Part shown: one piece after another, positions 21,072-34,447 of the stretch
Layout of the letters: every line of letters begins with the position of its first letter
Position numbering within the stretch: position 1 is the stretch's first letter
Origin: Pseudomonadota bacterium
GTDB taxonomy: Bacteria > Bdellovibrionota > UBA1018 > CAIMNF01
Reading direction: 5' to 3'
Assembly: GCA_027491115.1 (NCBI GenBank)
Contig: JAIXWV010000034.1
Span: 62,001 to 126,000 of the forward strand
DNA: 64,000 nt
Position numbers and translations under genes: made by a program
Notes under the pieces: generated by a model
Told to the model about the DNA's origin: nothing
Seen by the model: the letters and a program-made list of their open reading frames with translations, nothing else
Databases searched by the model: none

Positions 21072-22055
21072 TCAGAAATCTTTTCTGAACACCCCGTAGC
21101 GGTGTTCCCAGATCTGAAACGCCTCACCCCGTTTGAGAAGGTGTTCGCTTTGAGCTCCGTTCCGGATCAAGGCCGACACCACTCGAGTGATTCCGTTACG
21201 GGATGCGAGGGTGAGTGCGTGATGGATTCCGAAAGCCGCCAGCCCAGCCCCCTGGTATTCGGGCAAAATCGCCAAAGTCTTCCACACCAGGTATCCGGAC
21301 TCTGGAAAAAGAAAGAAATATCCAATTTCCTCGCCTGAAGGATTCAGGATGAAGAAGCTGAACTCGCTCAATAATGTGGCGAATCTCGGCGCGACCAACT
21401 CCTGGTAAGCCCGGTCATCAAAAGGCTCTGCGAGAAAACTCTGTTCGAAGCTCCCGGCATTGATCCGGGTCAGGGCAGTCAAATCACGGCTGCGGTTTGT
21501 GGCAAAATCGAGGGGACGGACAGAGAACCCTTTGGCCAGGGCCTGATCGAAGCGATCCTGGGACTTCGGTAGAATCCGGTCGAGATGGTGATACCCGCGT
21601 GAATGATACTCTTCGACCAGGTCGAAGCCCGCACGTCGAAACCAATCCACATGACTGGCGGGCTGGGAAGGTTCCCAAAAAAATTCCGGTGGAGCCTCGG
21701 ATCCGGGACCGTCCTCCAGACGCAAGCGGTAATCAAAAAGGGTATGGTAATTGACCGGTCCATGAACCGTCCTGACCCCACGATCCCTGAGCCACAGAGT
21801 GGCCTGCTCGATCAAAGAAAGGGCCCGCTGCTCTGCGCCGGACGCTGATGGATCACAATCGAAGAAACCGATGTACCCGGCTTCGGGGTTTCTCGAGGAA
21901 ACATTCGCCGAGATCCGCCCGAGAATCGCACCGCCTTCTCCCTCGTCGATGAAATGAGCCCGATCGAATCCGAACGGAAATCCGAGGATTTTTTTCTCGA
22001 AATCCGTCTTCGCAAAACGTTTTTGCAAATCCTCAATCCGGACTTGAAGGATCAT
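21072..22055 (-). CDS. GNAT-family N-acyltransferase, last gene of the six-gene cluster
   Basis: 327 residues from an ATG at 22055 in an ATGA overlap with the dikinase gene. The C-terminal half has the GNAT acyl-CoA fold: a strand-turn WKTLAILPEYQGAGLAAFGIHHAL with the Q/RxxGxG/A pyrophosphate loop. The first half (GYIGFFDCDPS, GPVNYHTLFDYRLRL, SHVDWFRRAGFDLVEEYHSRGYH) resembles larger two-lobe GNAT proteins of the YghO type. In the cluster it would acylate an amino group, for example the amine produced by the BtaA-like enzyme. Bacterial ceramide synthase has also been described as a GNAT-like enzyme, so lipid N-acylation is possible. The substrate is inference. Confidence 0.8.
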   Translation of the reverse strand: MILQVRIEDLQKRFAKTDFEKKILGFPFGFDRAHFIDEGEGGAILGRISANVSSRNPEAGYIGFFDCDPSASGAEQRALSLIEQATLWLRDRGVRTVHGPVNYHTLFDYRLRLEDGPGSEAPPEFFWEPSQPASHVDWFRRAGFDLVEEYHSRGYHHLDRILPKSQDRFDQALAKGFSVRPLDFATNRSRDLTALTRINAGSFEQSFLAEPFDDRAYQELVAPRFATLLSEFSFFILNPSGEEIGYFFLFPESGYLVWKTLAILPEYQGAGLAAFGIHHALTLASRNGITRVVSALIRNGAQSEHLLKRGEAFQIWEHRYGVFRKDF

Positions 22056-24775
22056 AAGATTCGAACCTCCCCTTTTCCGGCATCGATCCTCACCCTTTGC
22101 CCCGTTTTCAAGCGTTTCATCAGGCCTCCTGAAATACCCACAATCGTAGGAAGCCCCAACTCGCGAGCAACGACTGCCGAATGGGACAGCAAAGAGCCTC
22201 GTTCGATCAAAAGACCTGAACACGAAGGATAAAGAGGAACCCAGCCGGGATCGGTGCGGGAGGTAACCAGGATCTCGCCTTGAAGATTCTCCGTGTCTTT
22301 CAGTTCGTGTGCTACCCGGACCACGCCCTCCACCACTCCTGGACAGCAGGGAGTTCCATACAGGAAGTTCGGATCATGATTTTTCGACTCCAGTTCCCTG
22401 AGGAGATCGCCCCCGTCCAGAACGGCCGGATAAGCCTCGGACAAACCGACCGCTCCATAGGTGACAAAACGGTCCGGTGGTGCCGGAGTTCGCTTGTACT
22501 CCTCGAATACCGGCTTCCGGATGCGGACCAGATCCCGCAATGAATGGGTGGGCAAACGCCCTTCCACGAATGCGATGATTTCTTCGACCGTCAGGAAAAA
22601 CACCTCGAACTCGTCATCCAACAAGCCGAGTTTCACAAAATTCCCGCCGACAGCACGCATGAGATGACGGACCAATCCGTAACTCTTCGTCCGGTCGAAG
22701 CGGAGATCTTCACGGTTCCTGACAGCATTTCGGGCATGACGGAGCACCCAGAAATAAGTCCAACGTCTGGGCCCAATCAGTTTTTCCCTTACTCTCAGCT
22801 CTGCGCCTTCACGGATCTGCCTCTCACGGACTTCCATGGCCTCGATCGAATAAGACTTCATCCGGACATAGCTGGCGACATTCCCCACTACAAATGCCGG
22901 ATCATCATGCAGATCCCGTTCTTCGAACTTGAGCTCGTTGACACAGCGGAATCCGTATCGATCGAGAAATTGCATGAAGCGGGAATGAATGCCCGGACTC
23001 ACCGAGGGAAGGGACTTCCAAACATTCTCTGCCGGACCGGAGAGGAAAGTTTCCCTGAAGGAAGGGTCGCCTTCGTCGATTTCACGCGCAATCCGCATCA
23101 GCCACTTGGTCGGCTCGGTACTCTCGAGATCCCCTTGCCCGCAAAGCAGGTCATTCTGCAGACTCGCCCCGGCATCTCCGGACTCGACCCACTTCGAAGT
23201 GAGAGACTTAAGCACTCCGAAGAAAACCATACAAAGGAAATCGTTCACAATGGGAGCCTGCCAGCGCGGCAGAATCTCTCTTCGCAGGAATAAAAAATAA
23301 TCGATCTGTCTGGGAAGATCCCAGGATCTGAAGTTTTCCTTACGACCCGCCTCGTACAGCCTGTTGAAGTGGGTTTTGAACTCACGGATGATGGTCGGAC
23401 TGCGCCAAAACCTCAGTATCGAAACGGCGAGGAGCTGGATCTTGAGGACGATCCCATAGTCCGGACGGTCTTTCACAAAATCAAAAATCCTCTGATGCTC
23501 GCTCGAAAGACTTTTTTTAACGCCCATCATGGTTTCCATGAATGCGGGGTTGTTTCCAGAGCCCGGCATGATCATGAGAAGGCGGTACCAGTTGATCAGA
23601 TTGTAATAGATCCGGCCCCGGATGAGACCGAGCATGTTCTGGAGTCGCTGGTCATTCTCCATGAGAATTTTCTCGGGCACTTTCATCATCCTGGCGAATT
23701 GGAGATAAACCTGGTGGTAGGCATGACTCGCATAAGAGAACGTGAACGGAGAAGTCACGCCGCTGTAGCTTTCAATGATATTGGAATTGTCCCAGAGTGT
23801 CGCCGCTTTGCCGTTCACGGAAGGGTCGAAAAAACTCTCAGGAGGCAGTGAGGTCACCGGCCTCATCTGGAGGAAATACAAACGTCCTCCGGCCAGGGCC
23901 CACTCGATGTCCTGGGGAGCCCCTCCGGCGAGCTGTTCGAGTTCCAAGGACCGTTGTCGCAACTCCTCGAGTTCCTCCGGAGAAAGCACCTGGCTGCGCA
24001 GTCGGTCAGCCGGGATTTCCACCCGGACCAGTCCTCCGCCCGTGTTTCTGCGGAATTCGTGGGTGTGCTCTGCACGTCGGTGGAGAAGAACCTGACCCCC
24101 GTCACGGTGGATCCTGAAATGATCCCCTTCGAGCGCCCCTCCCACCAAACCCTCACCCTGGCCGTACACGGCCTCGATGACCATGGAATCGCGATCCAAT
24201 GGAGCGGACGGATCTCTCGTGAAGAGAACACCGGATCGATCGGAGTCGATCATTCTTTGGATCACCACTCCCATCCTGGGAAGTGCCGTGGAAATTCCTC
24301 TTTCCAAGCGGTAACGAAGTCCACGCTCAGAGAAGGCCGATGCCCATGCCTTCCGGATGGAGAGAGAGACCTGGGGGATTCCCTTCTGGAACAAATAACT
24401 GGAAAACAACCCCGCAAAAGAATGGTCTTTTGAGTCCTCATCGAGGCCACTGGATCTGACTGCGAGATCCTCATCCAACCAGCCGAGGGCACGCAGGCGC
24501 TCCTCGAGTTCCCTCTCGAAGGAGGCCAGAAGAGGATGGTCCGAGAACCACTTCAGGACGAGCTCCTCCGTTTCCCTCCCGGGGACGAGACCTGACACCT
24601 TCGCTCTCAATCCATGATGGTCCAGGTACTCATCGAACACCGGACTCGGCACGCAAAACCACTCGGGAACGGGTGTTCCGGCCCTGGTCAGCACGCCCAA
24701 TTGGGCGGCCTTGCCGCCACCAAACAGACGGAAATCAGAGTCGGCATTTCTTGAATCCAACAAACGGGTGTTCAT
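22052..24775 (-). CDS. Rifampin-phosphotransferase / PEP-synthase-like dikinase
   Basis: 907 residues. N-terminal ATP-grasp domain (about 1-320: GGGKAAQLGVLTRAGTPVPEWF, AVRSSGLDEDS, QDIEWAL...YFLQMRPV), a long helical middle region (about 320-800), and a C-terminal swivelling phospho-histidine domain with His865 in SLLSHSAVVARELGLPTIVG. This order is that of rifampin phosphotransferase, in which ATP's beta-phosphate is passed via the histidine to a hydroxyl of a small molecule held by the middle domain; classical PEP synthase instead carries a PEP-binding barrel at the C-terminus, absent here. In an operon with a ligase, P450 and UbiA-like enzyme it probably phosphorylates a pathway intermediate rather than an antibiotic. 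ATGA overlaps join it to both neighbours. Confidence 0.82.
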   Translation of the reverse strand: MNTRLLDSRNADSDFRLFGGGKAAQLGVLTRAGTPVPEWFCVPSPVFDEYLDHHGLRAKVSGLVPGRETEELVLKWFSDHPLLASFERELEERLRALGWLDEDLAVRSSGLDEDSKDHSFAGLFSSYLFQKGIPQVSLSIRKAWASAFSERGLRYRLERGISTALPRMGVVIQRMIDSDRSGVLFTRDPSAPLDRDSMVIEAVYGQGEGLVGGALEGDHFRIHRDGGQVLLHRRAEHTHEFRRNTGGGLVRVEIPADRLRSQVLSPEELEELRQRSLELEQLAGGAPQDIEWALAGGRLYFLQMRPVTSLPPESFFDPSVNGKAATLWDNSNIIESYSGVTSPFTFSYASHAYHQVYLQFARMMKVPEKILMENDQRLQNMLGLIRGRIYYNLINWYRLLMIMPGSGNNPAFMETMMGVKKSLSSEHQRIFDFVKDRPDYGIVLKIQLLAVSILRFWRSPTIIREFKTHFNRLYEAGRKENFRSWDLPRQIDYFLFLRREILPRWQAPIVNDFLCMVFFGVLKSLTSKWVESGDAGASLQNDLLCGQGDLESTEPTKWLMRIAREIDEGDPSFRETFLSGPAENVWKSLPSVSPGIHSRFMQFLDRYGFRCVNELKFEERDLHDDPAFVVGNVASYVRMKSYSIEAMEVRERQIREGAELRVREKLIGPRRWTYFWVLRHARNAVRNREDLRFDRTKSYGLVRHLMRAVGGNFVKLGLLDDEFEVFFLTVEEIIAFVEGRLPTHSLRDLVRIRKPVFEEYKRTPAPPDRFVTYGAVGLSEAYPAVLDGGDLLRELESKNHDPNFLYGTPCCPGVVEGVVRVAHELKDTENLQGEILVTSRTDPGWVPLYPSCSGLLIERGSLLSHSAVVARELGLPTIVGISGGLMKRLKTGQRVRIDAGKGEVRIL

Positions 24776-25665
24776 GAGCGGATACCCCCGATTGACTGTA
24801 GCAAGTCTTGCAAGGGCAAGGCCCAGAGGGCCAAGAGTAAATAAAGAGTCACGAGTCCTTCAACAGTTTTGAACTTGGACGGCGCCCACCAGAGGAGACT
24901 GGAGCCCGCCAGGATCAGGATGTACAGAGGTCCAAGGATCGATGAAATTCCGAGATGGTTTGCCGCATGCGTGGAAACACCGAGCAAGACCAGAAGAAGG
25001 AAAACGGTCTTTTCCCTTCCGTATTCACGTAGGTAGGTGCGAAGCACCGGGTGAGCCTTGGGATCGAGTTTCCGCCCTACCTCGAAGCCGAAAAAGGCTC
25101 CTAAAAGCAGGGTACAGAACCAGAATCCTCGAAGGTCACTCCAGGGACTCTGAAAACAAGAAAGGACGAAATACCCGAGTGGAAAGATGATGACCTGATG
25201 GAGGATGGCATAAAGCAAGGGCCTCCGGGCCAACGCATCTCCGAAATAGAACTCGACGAACATCAGATGCAGGTAGAACACTCCGAACCCGAACAAAATT
25301 GCAGCGGGCATTCCGCCTGCAACAGCGGCAGCCCCGGTCCAGAGGATCATCGCCCACTGAAACCGACGGACGAAAGCCTTGAACTCATCCAGGCGGAAAA
25401 GACCGCGAGGTAGCGGCCTTTCCGGATGGGCGATCTTGTCTTTCTCGAAATCCTTGGTCTCATCCATCAACCGGAGCTGCATGAGAAAGAGCATGCCTCC
25501 GATCAGTGCGACGGCAAAAGAGACTGTGAAGGAGACAGGCCCGGACTGATCGACCCCTTGGATCAAGGCCAATCGCCTTGAAGACTCCACAATTCCGAGT
25601 GCCACCAACAAATTGGGAATCAGAGGAAAACGCTCCTTGAAATAGACTGACCAACGCGAATTCAT
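24772..25665 (-). CDS. UbiA-like membrane prenyltransferase-family protein
   Basis: 297 residues with about eight or nine hydrophobic helices. The first Asp-rich motif of UbiA enzymes is recognisable between helices 2 and 3 (acidic residues 68, 69, 72 and 76 in RLMDETKDFEKD, followed by HPERPLPRG). The second motif is degenerate: FEVGRKLDP around residues 190-200 replaces the usual DxxxD-type sequence. UbiA enzymes join prenyl diphosphates to aromatic or lipid acceptors; divergent members may only carry or bind hydrophobic molecules. It overlaps both flanking genes (ATGA), so it belongs to the cluster. Substrate unknown; family assignment good, activity uncertain. Confidence 0.78.
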   Translation of the reverse strand: MNSRWSVYFKERFPLIPNLLVALGIVESSRRLALIQGVDQSGPVSFTVSFAVALIGGMLFLMQLRLMDETKDFEKDKIAHPERPLPRGLFRLDEFKAFVRRFQWAMILWTGAAAVAGGMPAAILFGFGVFYLHLMFVEFYFGDALARRPLLYAILHQVIIFPLGYFVLSCFQSPWSDLRGFWFCTLLLGAFFGFEVGRKLDPKAHPVLRTYLREYGREKTVFLLLVLLGVSTHAANHLGISSILGPLYILILAGSSLLWWAPSKFKTVEGLVTLYLLLALWALPLQDLLQSIGGIRS

Positions 25666-27059
25666 CGACTTGCTCCTCGATCGATGCGGGAGCGGTGTCT
25701 CCGGTCCCGGACGATCCTGGTTTCTAATACGGATTGGATCTCGGCGAATCGTCGGAGGATCTCCGCCGCCCGCGATTGAAGCCCCTCACCCCTCAGGACA
25801 AAACGCCCTGACGCGGGATCTTGCTCGACATGAGCTGCACTGTGACCGAGATGGGTGTAGATCCTCTGCTCGAGTTCGAAAGTCTGAAGGGACTGGAAAC
25901 TCCGGCCCTGATACCACAATCCTGATTCGTCTTCGGATACCCGATCACCCATGAAATGCCAGATTCTACCCGAAGAATCCTCACGTTTGTGATGGAGTGA
26001 TTCCTTCTCGTTCCCGATGTACCGCTTGCAAACGTGATCTCCGGTGACCCAGAGACCCTCCGGACTCAAGGAAGTCTCCACCCCTTCAGCCGGCTTGCCG
26101 ACATACAGGGTCTGGAAAAAACCTCTTTCACGACTGAGTCGGACGGCCACCTTGGCATCAGAAAATGCGACCGGCTCGGCCTCAGTGCTCCCGTAAACAT
26201 GCAAGAATCTTGTCCCGGGCACGAAATGATCGAACGCCGTTTCAAACAGCGCGCAATCACTCAAGGCTCCTCCCACATGAATCGATCGCAATTCACGAGC
26301 GACATTCGCCTCCATGAGCCGCTTCAGAAAAGCAGGGCCAGTGCTCAGGGTTTCGGGGCGCCATTCCGGTGGGAGGTCGGACAATCGCTCCAGGTGCTTT
26401 TGTTTCCAGCGGGGTGGAACGAAGACCGTTCCCCTGCCCATCCCGAGGTTGGCAAGCACCAGATTCGCAAAAACAGCCAAATCCGGCCGCTTGAAATCCT
26501 CAAATCCGCCGGAAATCCGTATGGCGTCATTTTGGGCACTGAGACCTTCATGAGTCCGGACCACACCCTTCGAACGCCCCGTGGTCCCTGTGGTGAATGT
26601 GACCACACCCGGATGTCCGGCTGGAACCTGCACCGAGGGTATCCTCGTAATTCGGGTTGAATCCGAAGGCCCCCGGCAGAGCGAACGCGCCGAACCCCAC
26701 GAAGGAATCCTCCGGATCGCGCCGGACCTGCCTCCCCAGAGTTTCCCCATGAATGAGGCGATGAAGAGTCGGGGCCGCATCATCGAAACAACAGAGTCGA
26801 TCTCGGACAAGGGCAAAAAGGGCTCCACCAGGAAGACCGTCACGCCACGACTGAGGAGGGCCATGATCACCGCATAAAACTCGACTGACACGGAGTCTGC
26901 GAGAAGGACGGAATCCCCGAGCCCGATGCGAGCGCGATCCAGGTTGCGCTCGGCATTCCGTGCCAAGGAAAGCATGGTTCCAAAATCAGAGGGAGCTCCG
27001 TCCAAAGGAAAAAAGGCGGGTGCACGGGGAGGAATCTCCCGCTCCCAGAGCAACTCCAT
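25662..27059 (-). CDS. Adenylate-forming (AMP-dependent) ligase
   Basis: 465 residues from the ATG at 27059 (an in-frame start at 27080 would add seven). The ATP-binding loop GVVTFTTGTTGRSKGVVRTH, the HVYGSTEAEPV motif and GDRVSEDESGLWYQGR are present, so it makes an acyl-AMP. The protein is shorter than most acyl-CoA ligases (about 500-560). Its C-terminal lobe ends in RDRRHRSRIDRG, reminiscent of the RHNAKI segment of OleC-type enzymes, but with Arg where the catalytic Lys would sit. That could mean altered thioester or beta-lactone chemistry, or only adenylation. It lies between the P450 (about 31-nt gap) and UbiA genes (ATGA overlap). Confidence 0.8.
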   Translation of the reverse strand: MELLWEREIPPRAPAFFPLDGAPSDFGTMLSLARNAERNLDRARIGLGDSVLLADSVSVEFYAVIMALLSRGVTVFLVEPFLPLSEIDSVVSMMRPRLFIASFMGKLWGGRSGAIRRIPSWGSARSLCRGPSDSTRITRIPSVQVPAGHPGVVTFTTGTTGRSKGVVRTHEGLSAQNDAIRISGGFEDFKRPDLAVFANLVLANLGMGRGTVFVPPRWKQKHLERLSDLPPEWRPETLSTGPAFLKRLMEANVARELRSIHVGGALSDCALFETAFDHFVPGTRFLHVYGSTEAEPVAFSDAKVAVRLSRERGFFQTLYVGKPAEGVETSLSPEGLWVTGDHVCKRYIGNEKESLHHKREDSSGRIWHFMGDRVSEDESGLWYQGRSFQSLQTFELEQRIYTHLGHSAAHVEQDPASGRFVLRGEGLQSRAAEILRRFAEIQSVLETRIVRDRRHRSRIDRGASR

Positions 27060-27090
27060 GGTGTTCCCTTGTCGGCTCACGTCCTGCTCC

Positions 27091-28425
27091 TCAACCGACC
27101 CGCCTGACCAAGCGAAGCATCAGAGGCCGCTTCATTCCGAGTGTGATCTGGTAGTCGCTTTCAGTCCGATGACCCGGAGCGGGTTCGAGCCTCCAGGCCT
27201 GGAGGATGCGGATCAGGATCAGCTTGATTTCAAGGAGTGCGAAATGGCGCCCAACGCAGGTCCTTGGCCCCATCCCGAATGGAAAAAAAGCGAGCTTGTT
27301 CTTTTCACGAAGTTCAGGAGTCCAACGGTCTGGATCGAAATCATCGGGACGATCCCAAAACCGGGGGTGACGATGAGTGAGGTAAGGAGAGAGGTAAAGA
27401 ATGGATCCGGGGCGGATCCGTCTTCCGCCGATCTCGTCCTCCTCGAGAGCGCGTTTTGTCCACGCCCAAACCGGCGGATGGAGCCGCAAGGCCTCGTCCA
27501 CCACTGCGTCCAAGAACGGCATATCCATCGCTTCTTCGGCACCCGGAATCTTCTGACCGACCCGTTGGTCGATCTCATTAACCAAACGCTTTTGGTGGAG
27601 GGAATGGACGGCAAGCTCATGCAGGATCCAAGGAATGAGATGTCCCGTCGTCTCGAATCCGGCCAGCATCATCGAAACGGCCTCGTCACGCAATTGGGAA
27701 GAGTCCATCCCCTCCCCGGTGGCCGGATCACGGGCCAACATCATCTTGGTCAGGAGATCCTCACCGGGCGTTCCGGAAGCCGACTCGGACGACTTTTGTC
27801 CGATCAAGTCCCAGACCGTGCGATCAATGGTCCTGAGAGCTCCATGAAACCGGATGTTCGACGGAGTCGGAAAAGACATGGGGACAGGCAACAACGCCCC
27901 GAAACGCCGGGTCAGGTAGCGGTTGATGTAGACCATGGCCTGTCGAAGGGCTGTGAAGTCATCTGCTGGTCTTGACCCGAAGAGCGCCTCACAAACAATT
28001 TCAAATGCGAGACGTTTCATGGACTCACTCAATTCAACCGGTAAATGATCCACTGTACGGAACGCTTCGAGAGTTACTCCGATCTTCCGGTTCATGTCAT
28101 CCACCATTTTCAGCAAGTTGCCATGATGAAAAGTGGGAGCGATGAGCCGTCTCTGCTTCTTCCACTTCTCGCCTTCGCTCATGAAAATCCCGTCTCCGAC
28201 GACTGCTCGGAAGTTCGAGGCTTTGACGTAGTTCCGAGCATTCTTCATTTCAACGCGATGGACATCTTCCGGATGGGCGACCAAGATCAGCGAATGCGGC
28301 CCCAGACGGAACTGCACCAGATCTCCATAACTTTCCCTGAGTTTCTTCAGAAACCCGATCTTGTCGAGACGGTACTGGTGCAAATTCCCGATCCACGGGA
28401 GTCCGGGTACGCTCACGGGATTCAT
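27091..28425 (-). CDS. Cytochrome P450
   Basis: 444 residues, ATG in an ATGA overlap with the BtaA-like gene; a longer in-frame start at 28788 would lie inside that gene. The I-helix AGFETTGH, the K-helix ExxR in DEALRLHPP, the PERF-like FDPDRW, and the haem-binding FPFGMGPRTCVGRHFA with Cys390 are all intact. The overall look (PGLPWIGNLHQY start, hydrophobic substrate region) recalls soluble fatty-acid or terpene hydroxylases of the CYP4/CYP110/CYP102 style. No reductase is fused or adjacent, so electrons must come from elsewhere. Within the cluster it likely hydroxylates a lipid or prenyl chain. Confidence 0.92.
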   Translation of the reverse strand: MNPVSVPGLPWIGNLHQYRLDKIGFLKKLRESYGDLVQFRLGPHSLILVAHPEDVHRVEMKNARNYVKASNFRAVVGDGIFMSEGEKWKKQRRLIAPTFHHGNLLKMVDDMNRKIGVTLEAFRTVDHLPVELSESMKRLAFEIVCEALFGSRPADDFTALRQAMVYINRYLTRRFGALLPVPMSFPTPSNIRFHGALRTIDRTVWDLIGQKSSESASGTPGEDLLTKMMLARDPATGEGMDSSQLRDEAVSMMLAGFETTGHLIPWILHELAVHSLHQKRLVNEIDQRVGQKIPGAEEAMDMPFLDAVVDEALRLHPPVWAWTKRALEEDEIGGRRIRPGSILYLSPYLTHRHPRFWDRPDDFDPDRWTPELREKNKLAFFPFGMGPRTCVGRHFALLEIKLILIRILQAWRLEPAPGHRTESDYQITLGMKRPLMLRLVRRVG

Positions 28426-29516
28426 GCCAGCATCCTTTCCAGAACTTCGATTTCGTACATTTGCATTCTCTCGCGTCCGATCGGCCCATGGAATTCGGGT
28501 GTGATGTCCCGAAACCCGTCTCTCACCAGACCCTCCGGGCGATGGAGGTAGTGACGCAATACCACGCGAGCACCGGGCAACAGTCCTTTTCCTATTCTTC
28601 GGAGGAATTCCTGCTCGACGGGTGGTTTGAAATAGGATGCCACGTTCGAAAACGACACGAAATCCACACCCCGTGTCTGTTCTATTCCGTTCACGAGATC
28701 CCCTTCCACCCATTCCGGTTCGATCCGGTTCAAAGCTTCCCGGGCTTCCAGGTAGATGTCCCGGTCGGTCTCCGGGGGCAAACCGCACGGAAAGCGGAGT
28801 TCCCCGAGCAGGGTCAATTGCAGGAAAAAGTTTTCCCGTACGAGCCCCTGGGAAAACAAGCGCTCGAAGGCCCGACTGTAGTAGTCCACGTATCCGACTC
28901 CTGTGTTATTCGTTGGAAAATCTCCCGAATAAAGAAGCGAATTGAAGGTCCGTGCATTTCCCGCCAAGGCAATGAGCGTCTTCCATCTCAAACCGCTCCA
29001 ATCTTCCCGGACCACTTCCGCCTGCTCGGCCGCATCAGTGCAGGCGAAGAGACGTTCGATCCTGTCGGACCCCAGAATCACCCGAGCCAGCTTTGAAAAA
29101 CCAATGAACGTGCGCTCCCAACGACCTTCCAACAGGGGTGAGCGGAATCCTGCGTTCCTCAGGCGGTCATCGAGAAAACGTCGACTCGCGGGTCTCAGCT
29201 CGAGATCCATGAAAACGGACTCCCGGTCCTCGGGAGAAAGCGCAGGTACTCCCGGATAGGAAAAGAAACGGAGGTAATCCGTGTGCTCGAGGCTCCGCAA
29301 CAAAGCCAACCGGAGTTCACAGAGAGCCAGCTGTGGGAACGAGAGATCAACCACGGTCAGGCGTCTCAATCCGCGTTTCAACAAAGGGATCACCCGTCCT
29401 CCGCTCCCGCAAACGACCCAGGCATGGGCGCAGGCATCGGGCAGCAGGCTCCGCTCCAGGAGAGTGTCCTCGTTGGTCAAGGTGTAATTCAAATCTCGGA
29501 AATATCGGCTCCCCAC
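28422..29516 (-). CDS. DUF3419 / BtaA-like 3-amino-3-carboxypropyltransferase-family protein
   Basis: 364 residues from a GTG at 29516. A TTG at 29570 would coincide base for base with the divergent permease start, and a plausible promoter ends 7 nt before the GTG. Family hallmarks are DLNYTLTNEDTLLE near the start, CGSGGRVIPLL (AdoMet-binding glycine loop), VVDLSFPQLALCELRLALLRSLEHTDYLRFFSY and the C-terminal DFVSFSNVASYF...GARVVLRHYL. BtaA enzymes move the aminocarboxypropyl group of AdoMet onto diacylglycerol to form betaine-lipid headgroups. No BtaB methyltransferase is adjacent. It is the first gene of the six-gene cluster, so the acceptor may be a cluster intermediate. Family confident, reaction inferred. 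Confidence 0.78.
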   Translation of the reverse strand: MGSRYFRDLNYTLTNEDTLLERSLLPDACAHAWVVCGSGGRVIPLLKRGLRRLTVVDLSFPQLALCELRLALLRSLEHTDYLRFFSYPGVPALSPEDRESVFMDLELRPASRRFLDDRLRNAGFRSPLLEGRWERTFIGFSKLARVILGSDRIERLFACTDAAEQAEVVREDWSGLRWKTLIALAGNARTFNSLLYSGDFPTNNTGVGYVDYYSRAFERLFSQGLVRENFFLQLTLLGELRFPCGLPPETDRDIYLEAREALNRIEPEWVEGDLVNGIEQTRGVDFVSFSNVASYFKPPVEQEFLRRIGKGLLPGARVVLRHYLHRPEGLVRDGFRDITPEFHGPIGRERMQMYEIEVLERMLA

Positions 29517-32194: not shown

Positions 32195-32941
32195 ATGGAT
32201 TCACTCTATACAAACGCCAAACGCGAGTTCACCATTCAACCCGGTTGCCCCTGGTACGAAGCCCAGCAGGCGTATCAGCCGGCGAACGTGAATTGGTGCG
32301 AACCCACCCGTTGCTCCATCATCAACGAACCGGCCAATGCGTGGTCGAATCTCGGCTTTCTGATCGTCGGCGCAATCGTTTTGCAACGCCTTCAAGGAAC
32401 CCGTGAAAAAACCTTGTCCTATTTCGGATGGGTCGTGTTTCTGATGGGATTCTTCTCCTTCACCTACCACGCCACCAACAATTACCTGAGCCAATTCTTT
32501 GATTTCATCGGGATGTACCTGATGACCAGTTTTGTGATCGCCTTCCACTGGAGGCGCGTGGCCGGAAAAGACCCTCGCAGCCTGCTCACCCATTTCTGGT
32601 TCGTGTTCAGTGCGAACCTTGCACTTTTCATGGTCTTTGACATCATGGACATCGCTGTCCAACATACCGTCCTGCTGAACGTGATTCCATTGGCGGCCTT
32701 GGATCTCGTCGCCGGCTTCAAAGAAAAGCGCCTTGGACAATACCGGCATTATTGGGTGGCGTTGGTCCTCATGGTGATCGCCCAGGTCTTTTCGCAACTC
32801 GATTTGAAAAGGATCTGGTGCGAACCGGAGAATCTCTTTTTCCACGGACACGCAATTTGGCACGTGTTCGGAAGCTTCGGGATGCTGTTTTTGGGGCTTC
32901 ACCTGAAGTGGCTTCTGTCCCGCATTCCATCTAAAGCCTGA
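32195..32941 (+). CDS. Alkaline-ceramidase-family (CREST) membrane hydrolase
   Basis: 248 residues, seven predicted TM helices. It carries the conserved features of alkaline ceramidases: WCEPTRCSIINEPANAWSNL near the N-terminus, Ser51, His92 in FTYHATNN, Asp103 in FFDFIGMY, and the C-terminal metal-binding HGHAIWHVFGS (His217, His219, His223). These enzymes hydrolyse ceramide to sphingoid base and fatty acid in the membrane; other CREST members have different substrates. The next gene, 91 bp downstream, encodes a lipid kinase that could phosphorylate a freed sphingoid base, and the neighbourhood is lipid-rich. No serine palmitoyltransferase is in the window, so native sphingolipids are not proven; host or prey lipid could be the substrate. 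Confidence 0.85.
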   Translation: MDSLYTNAKREFTIQPGCPWYEAQQAYQPANVNWCEPTRCSIINEPANAWSNLGFLIVGAIVLQRLQGTREKTLSYFGWVVFLMGFFSFTYHATNNYLSQFFDFIGMYLMTSFVIAFHWRRVAGKDPRSLLTHFWFVFSANLALFMVFDIMDIAVQHTVLLNVIPLAALDLVAGFKEKRLGQYRHYWVALVLMVIAQVFSQLDLKRIWCEPENLFFHGHAIWHVFGSFGMLFLGLHLKWLLSRIPSKA

Positions 32942-33032: not shown

Positions 33033-33941
33033 ATGCGTGACGAGATCGCCTTCTTCATCAACCAGGAGTCCGGATCGGGTGAAGCCCCGCTCGCTGCGGA
33101 CGCAGCAGCCAGCACTCTCGCAGGACTCACGATTCGCAAGAATCTTCCCCGGAGCTCGATCGATCTCACCCGCGCCTGTTCGGAACTCGACCCGGGTAAA
33201 ACACGTGCTGCTGTCGTCTTCGGTGGAGACGGAACCCAATCCTATGCTCTCCGCGGCCTCATCGAGAGCGGTATTCCGCTTTACCCCTTTCCCACCGGTA
33301 CGGCCAATGACCTCGCCCAGGATCAAGGCATCACTGGATGCCGGAGCCAGCTTGAAAAATTGCTCCACTCGGAATCGATCGAAGAAGTCCGGGTACTCGA
33401 AGTGAACGGCATCCCGTTCTCGACCGTCTCGGGAATCGGCATCGGCGCCGATCTTTGCGAAGAATACAATGAACTCAGAACCCGTCATCGGATGTTCAAA
33501 AAGGCATCCCAAAGGATGAATTGTGAGATCTATTCCGCCTTGGCCCTGAAGCACATCTTCAAGAACTGGGGCAAGGGACTCCAGGTCCGGATCACGCGCG
33601 GTGGACTGAGCGAGGAGCTGACTCTTTCCGCACTGATGATCTGCAATCAGGCGAATCTTGCTGGGAACCTCACGGTCGCTCCAGGACAAAGTAAACACTC
33701 GAGCACCTTCACTGTGCTCATTCACCCTGGGGTATGCGGAATGAAGACCGTTCGGGGACTTGGCTCCATGAAGTTCGGGAAAATTGATTCAAGTTTCATC
33801 ACCTACAAAACGGATCACATCCGGATCGAGTCCTTAAGTGGTGCGCCCATCACGGTATTCGGTGACGGCGAAATCCTGACCCGCAGCCCGGTATTGGAGT
33901 TTCGTGCTTTCCCGAAAAAATTGAGGGTTTTCCGCGCGTGA
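33033..33941 (+). CDS. Diacylglycerol/sphingosine-kinase-family lipid kinase
   Basis: 302 residues with the DAGK catalytic fold: VVFGGDGTQSYALRGL (GGDGT nucleotide loop at 64-68), YPFPTGTANDLAQ (second signature), and the C-terminal beta sandwich beginning around VSGIGIGADLCEEYNELR and ending FGDGEIL. YegS/BmrU relatives phosphorylate diacylglycerol or other lipid alcohols; eukaryotic sphingosine kinases share the same fold. Because the ceramidase-family gene lies immediately upstream, a sphingoid-base kinase role is attractive but not provable here. A soluble, peripheral cytoplasmic enzyme is expected. GTGA overlap with the following phospholipase-like gene indicates co-transcription. Confidence 0.85.
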   Translation: MRDEIAFFINQESGSGEAPLAADAAASTLAGLTIRKNLPRSSIDLTRACSELDPGKTRAAVVFGGDGTQSYALRGLIESGIPLYPFPTGTANDLAQDQGITGCRSQLEKLLHSESIEEVRVLEVNGIPFSTVSGIGIGADLCEEYNELRTRHRMFKKASQRMNCEIYSALALKHIFKNWGKGLQVRITRGGLSEELTLSALMICNQANLAGNLTVAPGQSKHSSTFTVLIHPGVCGMKTVRGLGSMKFGKIDSSFITYKTDHIRIESLSGAPITVFGDGEILTRSPVLEFRAFPKKLRVFRA

Positions 33942-34447
33942 AACCCGTGGCACCGCTCTCCCTTCTTGTCCTTTTACTGGCAGGATCGCCATCATCATGG
34001 AGTCAAGTCGGGCAGGACAGCCCCTTGCGGCCTTTCGAGACCGATTACTGCACGGGTTTCCCGGAAGGTACCCGTCAGGATCCAAAACTCTGGAAGCACT
34101 GTTGCGTAGAACACGACCTGCACTTCTGGGCTGGAGGCTGCCGGAACGCACGCCGTGCTGCAGATCGAAGAATCTATCAATGCATCCGTGATGCCGGCGC
34201 TCCCGGGATCGCTCGACTGATGTTTCTCGGAATCCGACTGGGCGGCCTTTCACCCATTAAATTCGAAAAAAGAAAATGGGGAAACGGTTGGAAAGACGGA
34301 CGTGGCGACTACCGCCCACTCACTCCGGGAGATCTCCCCTTGCTCGAGGCTGAGTTCCGCGCGAATCCGTCCCTTGACGTCACTCCCGAGATGTTCCGCC
34401 GCTTTCTGGAAACCCTTCAGGAAGATCTCAGGGAAGACAGGCAGTGA
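33938..34447 (+). CDS. Secreted phospholipase-A2-like protein
   Basis: 169 residues, GTG start overlapping the previous stop. Signal peptide 1-23 (LLVLLLAGSPSSWS). The mature part contains DYCTGFPEG and KHCCVEHDLHFW, matching the CCxxHD catalytic motif of secreted phospholipase A2 (Cys55, Cys56, His59, Asp60), then GGCRNARRAADRRIYQCI. The canonical calcium-loop glycines are not clear, so catalysis is likely but not certain. It would act in the periplasm or outside on phospholipids. Co-transcription with a lipid kinase and proximity to a ceramidase make a lipid-remodelling or lipid-scavenging set. Confidence 0.72.
   Translation: MKPVAPLSLLVLLLAGSPSSWSQVGQDSPLRPFETDYCTGFPEGTRQDPKLWKHCCVEHDLHFWAGGCRNARRAADRRIYQCIRDAGAPGIARLMFLGIRLGGLSPIKFEKRKWGNGWKDGRGDYRPLTPGDLPLLEAEFRANPSLDVTPEMFRRFLETLQEDLREDRQ

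Follow-up and report, generated by a model that had tools for sequence, protein, structure and literature searches.

Which biochemical task could unite the six closely spaced genes at positions 21072-29516 of the window, a stretch of 64,000 nucleotides from a 2.55 Mb genome whose nearest named relatives are Bdellovibrionales/Bdellovibrio MAGs? An earlier note had read these genes as one minus-strand operon in the order btaA, P450, ligase, UbiA-like gene, dikinase and GNAT. All six ORFs were found, and ORF calls and profile matches bore out both the order and the families (Table 1). The divergent side of the locus, which lies beyond this interval, consists of an FtsX permease gene, a ceramidase-like gene and a lipid kinase gene. 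The 3' end of the kinase gene is overlapped by a gene for a short protein (33938-34447) with a CCxxHD motif, which looks phospholipase A2-like by eye and has no Pfam match.

Table 1. Genes of the operon and of its divergent side, with positions in the window
Feature	Position	Strand	Profile matches and motifs
BtaA/DUF3419-like AdoMet 3-amino-3-carboxypropyltransferase, GTG start	28422..29516	-	PF11899 90 bits
Cytochrome P450	27091..28425	-	PF00067 291 bits; haem-Cys motif FPFGMGPRTCVG
Adenylate-forming ligase, OleC-like (PRK09274), short form	25662..27080	-	PF00501 73.6 bits; NF006754 129 bits
UbiA-like membrane protein	24772..25665	-	NF010118 (NCBIfam PRK13592) 54.6 bits, under cutoff
Rifampin-phosphotransferase-like dikinase, PRK06241.2-2 subfamily	22052..24775	-	PF01326 220 bits; PF00391 68 bits; NF004881 836 bits
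GNAT N-acyltransferase	21072..22055	-	PF00583 27 bits
Divergent FtsX/MacB-type ABC permease, 856 aa	29570..32140	+	PF02687 120 bits; PF12704 80 bits
Ceramidase-like (CREST) membrane hydrolase	32195..32941	+	PF05875 64 bits
DAGK/YegS-type lipid kinase	33033..33941	+	PF00781 49 bits

The four ATGA overlaps of the earlier description were confirmed; each is 4 nt long, and they join btaA to P450, ligase to UbiA, UbiA to dikinase and dikinase to GNAT. The remaining gap, between P450 and ligase, had been given as about 31 nt, which holds if the ligase starts with the ATG at 27059. With the GTG at 27080 it shrinks to 10 nt. This GTG is preceded by GGAG, the ligase begins 10 nt past the P450 in relatives L003 and L004, and the GTG is the more likely start.

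Neighbourhood conservation had been named as the test of the claim that the products act together, and we found the neighbours conserved in related genomes. The same neighbourhood recurs at over 25 loci across the phylum (Bdellovibrionota). Common to the fetched neighbourhoods are btaA, the ligase, the UbiA-like gene, the dikinase and either a GNAT or a formyltransferase; frequent extras in relatives are an SDR, a PigE/acyl-ACP-reductase-like protein, an ABC ATPase, an FtsX permease and a LolA-like protein. Relatives of btaA, 45-78% identical, occupy the same operon position within the genus; at some loci btaA was not seen in the fetched 20 kb.

Across 55 genomes of the order, btaA and strong matches to the UbiA-like gene were each detected in 19 and occurred together in 18, leaving one genome with btaA only and one with the UbiA-like gene only (Fisher p~2×10−12). 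A search of 49 of these genomes detected the dikinase in 18 of 19 that have btaA; the 30 genomes lacking btaA had none, or one if a lower-scoring match in genome G014 is counted (p from 2×10−12 to 3×10−11). These p values overstate independence because the genomes are related. Of 192 genomes searched across the phylum, 41 gave a dikinase-family match above the cutoff, and some of the families concerned are represented by finished single-contig genomes. The tree distances of UbiA, ligase and dikinase are correlated (r=0.79-0.93; 0.93 for UbiA-ligase, 0.89 for dikinase-UbiA), and those of btaA match the other trees weakly (r=0.18-0.44).

At locus L044 the ligase and UbiA-like domains form a single protein of 828 aa. 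At several other loci, where a separate hydrolase is missing, the ligase measures 777-805 aa and carries an extra N-terminal part of hydrolase size, suggesting a hydrolase-ligase fusion. This points to a direct hand-over from the ligase to the UbiA-like enzyme. Taken together, the conserved neighbourhood, the co-occurrence, the congruent trees and the ligase-UbiA fusion support joint action of the products, and the operon is a real conserved unit. It is very improbable that the genes sit together by chance or for separate housekeeping reasons, with no shared pathway. All the families do have unrelated members elsewhere, such as another PPDK_N protein in this genome, but conservation, co-occurrence, fusion and the mutual exclusivity of the capping enzymes described below contradict such an explanation.

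Outside Bdellovibrionota, the spread of the cluster is known from plasmid records only. A plasmid of the alphaproteobacterial Roseinatronobacter sp. S2 encodes UbiA, dikinase, DUF3419, a GNAT-like protein and ligase, as well as a membrane protein of 439 aa that is dolichol/phytol kinase-like by eye and has no Pfam match. Its DUF3419 protein is of the canonical type.

The variable member of the common set divides the clusters into two subtypes. A GNAT is encoded in 18 loci and a formyltransferase in 12, never both (p=7×10−6), and the dikinase tree groups the formyltransferase loci together. This exclusivity suggests that the two enzymes are alternatives for capping an amine, and the simplest reading is N-acylation in one subtype and N-formylation in the other. 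The N-acylation proposed for the GNAT is supported by homology to YghO/bCerS: a profile of eight cluster GNATs matched E. coli YghO by hmmsearch (E=7×10−14) and by hhalign (E=1.4×10−12, probability 97.7, 251 columns). Together with CC_1154, yghO represents the acyl-CoA N-acyltransferase needed for dihydroceramide (PMC9386255).

Almost every genome of the order, with or without the cluster, encodes a closer YghO/bCerS homologue, often adjoining a serine palmitoyltransferase (SPT)-like enzyme. In the genome of the window these two lie on other contigs (C36:62549-63637 and C3:45405-46553). We take the cluster GNAT to be a divergent YghO/bCerS paralogue and the cluster to stand apart from ordinary ceramide synthesis. 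For the same reason the cluster GNAT was rejected as the enzyme that makes ordinary ceramide in this bacterium. An OlsB-type aminolipid synthase was also rejected, since PF13444, according to an aminolipid review the domain common to aminolipid synthases, gave no match. The dihydroceramide and phosphosphingolipid clusters of Caulobacter and E. coli (aasR, acpR, spt, cerR, cerS/yghO, cpgB; PMC9386255, PMC11324152, PMC10331486) resemble the locus in having a YghO-type GNAT, an adenylate-forming ligase, a lipid kinase, an SDR (here in relatives) and lipid transport genes nearby. In contrast to them, the cluster of the window lacks serine palmitoyltransferase and a carrier protein and adds the BtaA-like and UbiA-like proteins, the dikinase and the P450.

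The first gene of the operon offers a possible origin for the amine. Its product matches DUF3419 over residues 4-325, well above the cutoff of 28.2 bits, contains the AdoMet motif GSGGR..VVDLS and is a predicted aminocarboxypropyltransferase. The subfamily reads NYTLxNED where the canonical-type plasmid member reads RYAQLWED. Membership in the DUF3419/BtaA family is shared with the BtaA/BtaB betaine-lipid pathway, so the operon might merely decorate an ordinary lipid, attaching a homoserine-type headgroup to ceramide or diacylglycerol in the manner of BtaA while the other enzymes modify that headgroup. The SPT-like enzyme and closer YghO/bCerS homologue in nearly every genome of the order mean that ceramide is probably available, and a ceramidase-like gene adjoins. 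However, the SPT-like gene is equally common in genomes without the cluster (p=0.29), and no methyltransferase, BtaB included, turned up in the six-gene set or among the identified genes of the divergent side, so the operon has no BtaB-type N-methyltransferase. Moreover, the operon contains five enzymes besides the DUF3419 protein, and headgroup decoration alone leaves the ligase, the UbiA-like protein and the dikinase unexplained. We therefore regard decoration of an existing lipid as unlikely.

Two elements of the earlier reading, activation of an acyl or prenyl chain as AMP ester and its joining by the UbiA-like enzyme, had to be qualified. The ligase possesses the P-loop-like motif FTTGTTGRSKG and the GDR motif with the A8 Asp, and has an Arg at the position of the catalytic C-terminal Lys (RHRSRID) and a short C-terminal domain. 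The same replacement occurs in the other GNAT-type ligases of Bdellovibrionota in which the region is intact, L044 excepted, whereas formyltransferase-type ligases and that of L054 keep the Lys. The ligase of the GNAT subtype may thus not adenylate normally. A comparable set of enzymes is the olefin system OleBCD (alpha/beta hydrolase, OleC ligase, OleD SDR): the ligase is OleC-like, and a hydrolase and an SDR are found in clusters of the sister subtype, the former seemingly fused to the ligase in many cases. Unlike OleBCD, the cluster contains UbiA, dikinase and DUF3419 proteins, and no OleA-type thiolase was identified in it.

The UbiA-like protein of the window gave no Pfam match; its relatives match PF01040 with 43-44 bits against a cutoff of 34.2. 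The first Asp-rich motif is kept (RxxDExKDxxxD with RPLPRG; DExKDxxxD in the aligned members), but the second is replaced by ExxRK in all aligned members from clusters in which the region is intact, which makes it unsafe to presume conventional prenyl transfer. With a profile of the family, the nearest solved relative was the archaeal DGGGP synthase 6m31, an ether-lipid enzyme, at a weak E of 7×10−4. AlphaFold models from three-sequence alignments were too poor for use (mean pLDDT 43.9 for the UbiA-like and 38.9 for the BtaA-like protein).

The P450 has an intact haem motif and occurs patchily, some clusters having it and others not. Its absence from most relatives indicates optional tailoring, so the hydroxylation proposed earlier is retained for some lineages and given up as a core step. 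At loci L048, L049 and L050 a P450 gene adjoins a dikinase gene, with neither btaA nor a ligase close to the type of the window; a UbiA-like gene is present in L048 and L049, and L050 has a marginal match. These loci possibly represent a third subtype.

For the dikinase, phosphorylation via a phospho-histidine had been proposed. Its domains follow the order of rifampin phosphotransferase (RPH), with ATP-grasp, substrate domain and swivelling phospho-His domain, and the SHSA histidine of the swivel domain is conserved. RPH phosphorylates a hydroxyl (PMC4844700). The match to RPH structures (PDB 5hv1, 5fbs) reached 198 bits, compared with 836 bits for the best family, NF004881, and the NCBIfam model RIF_Ptrans_rph gave 273.7 bits, under its cutoff of 999. 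A role in rifampin resistance was rejected on score and on gene context, which is biosynthetic. PEP synthase was likewise rejected, as PF01326 and PF00391 were the only domains matched and there is no PEP barrel.

The dikinase also resembles RedH (325 bits) and PigC (278 bits), and PigC condenses two parts. Simple phosphorylation is thus one of two options for this enzyme. The resemblance opens a different view of the whole locus, in which a PigC/RedH-like dikinase joins an amine to an aldehyde, supplied in relatives by a PigE/AAR-like reductase, and the exporter secretes a diffusible specialized metabolite such as a signal, pigment or antibiotic. The partner reductase of relatives matches PigE and acyl-ACP reductase, a separate cluster of PigE-like, PigC-like and UbiA genes exists in the order, and the patchy presence is that of accessory metabolism. 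Against this, the dikinase fits NF004881 best, the genome of the window lacks the reductase gene that is frequent among relatives, so that the precursor may differ here, and the lipid kinase and LolA-like partners fit a lipid better. The prodigiosin and tambjamine PigE-PigC pathways share the dikinase superfamily with the locus, and a PigE-like reductase lies beside clusters of relatives; they differ in dikinase subfamily and in the UbiA and BtaA partners, and no pyrrole-pathway genes were among the genes identified. A diffusible metabolite is in our view rather unlikely.

Export and lipid genes accompany the cluster in relatives. In addition to the window, 22 loci have a DAGK-like lipid kinase gene next to cluster genes, and ABC/FtsX/LolA-like export genes lie beside the cluster in a subset of relatives; the FtsX permease gene adjoins btaA in L004, L017, L020 and L021. 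The ceramidase-like gene adjoins the cluster only in L003 and L004 among relatives. The divergent FtsX/MacB-type permease is a probable exporter. These kinase and export neighbours make a lipid-type product plausible and, with it, the earlier suggestion that this permease exports the product.

Several loci outside the main set carry related genes. L057, L058, L059 and L060, from the order of the window, encode a PigE-like protein of ~880-950 aa and one or two PigC-like dikinases; a UbiA-like gene is found in L057 and L058, and L057 also encodes a protein that is CDP-archaeol synthase-like by eye. On a Streptomyces clavuligerus plasmid (L055, 6174-11551) a dikinase of the same superfamily adjoins AfsA-related and isoprenylcysteine methyltransferase-like proteins. 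A Rhizobium plasmid operon (L056, 1-6158) encodes ketoacyl-ACP synthase III, SDR, an MBL-fold protein, CoF synthetase, DUF3419 and a hypothetical protein. In a Deefgea plasmid (L053, 13255-15898) an iron-containing redox enzyme, DUF3419, SAM decarboxylase (speD) and a monooxygenase are encoded one after another; the presence of the decarboxylase may hint at aminopropyl transfer. It seems that small-molecule clusters repeatedly include DUF3419 enzymes.

Our preferred reading, which we hold with middling confidence, is that the genes serve to build and export an amino-lipid of the cell envelope. The product is probably an exported, N-acylated, ceramide-like amino-lipid with an amine from AdoMet. 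We infer its substrates, bonds and destination from the enzyme families, and the order of steps given here is a guess. The ligase would act on an acyl chain and hand it to the UbiA-like enzyme, and the BtaA-like enzyme would add aminocarboxypropyl from AdoMet. The DAGK-like kinase would phosphorylate a lipid intermediate, with kinase and dikinase together as the phosphate source. The GNAT would then acylate the new amine in the subtype of the window, with N-formylation in the sister subtype; in some lineages the P450 may hydroxylate the chain. The ABC/FtsX system would export the product.

More speculatively, the products could form a new class of bacterial membrane lipid. Such a lipid would be an analogue of ceramide with AdoMet, not serine, as the source of its amine and polar carbons; a UbiA-fold enzyme using an acyl-adenylate or phosphorylated donor would join it to an activated chain, and the cap would be N-acyl or N-formyl depending on lineage. 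We consider this doubtful at present. The earlier note knew of no characterized pathway with this gene set, and we found no description of the cluster or of the enzyme combination in the literature searched, most subscription journals being outside its reach; the accessible part of the lipocone paper does not describe the cluster.

If the amino-lipid reading is true, it would reveal a sphingolipid-like pathway with a starting point other than serine, would extend what is known of DUF3419 and UbiA-like chemistry, and would suggest that predatory bacteria and their relatives possess an unlooked-for cell-envelope lipid. Since finished genomes of the phylum contain homologues, this can be tested directly.
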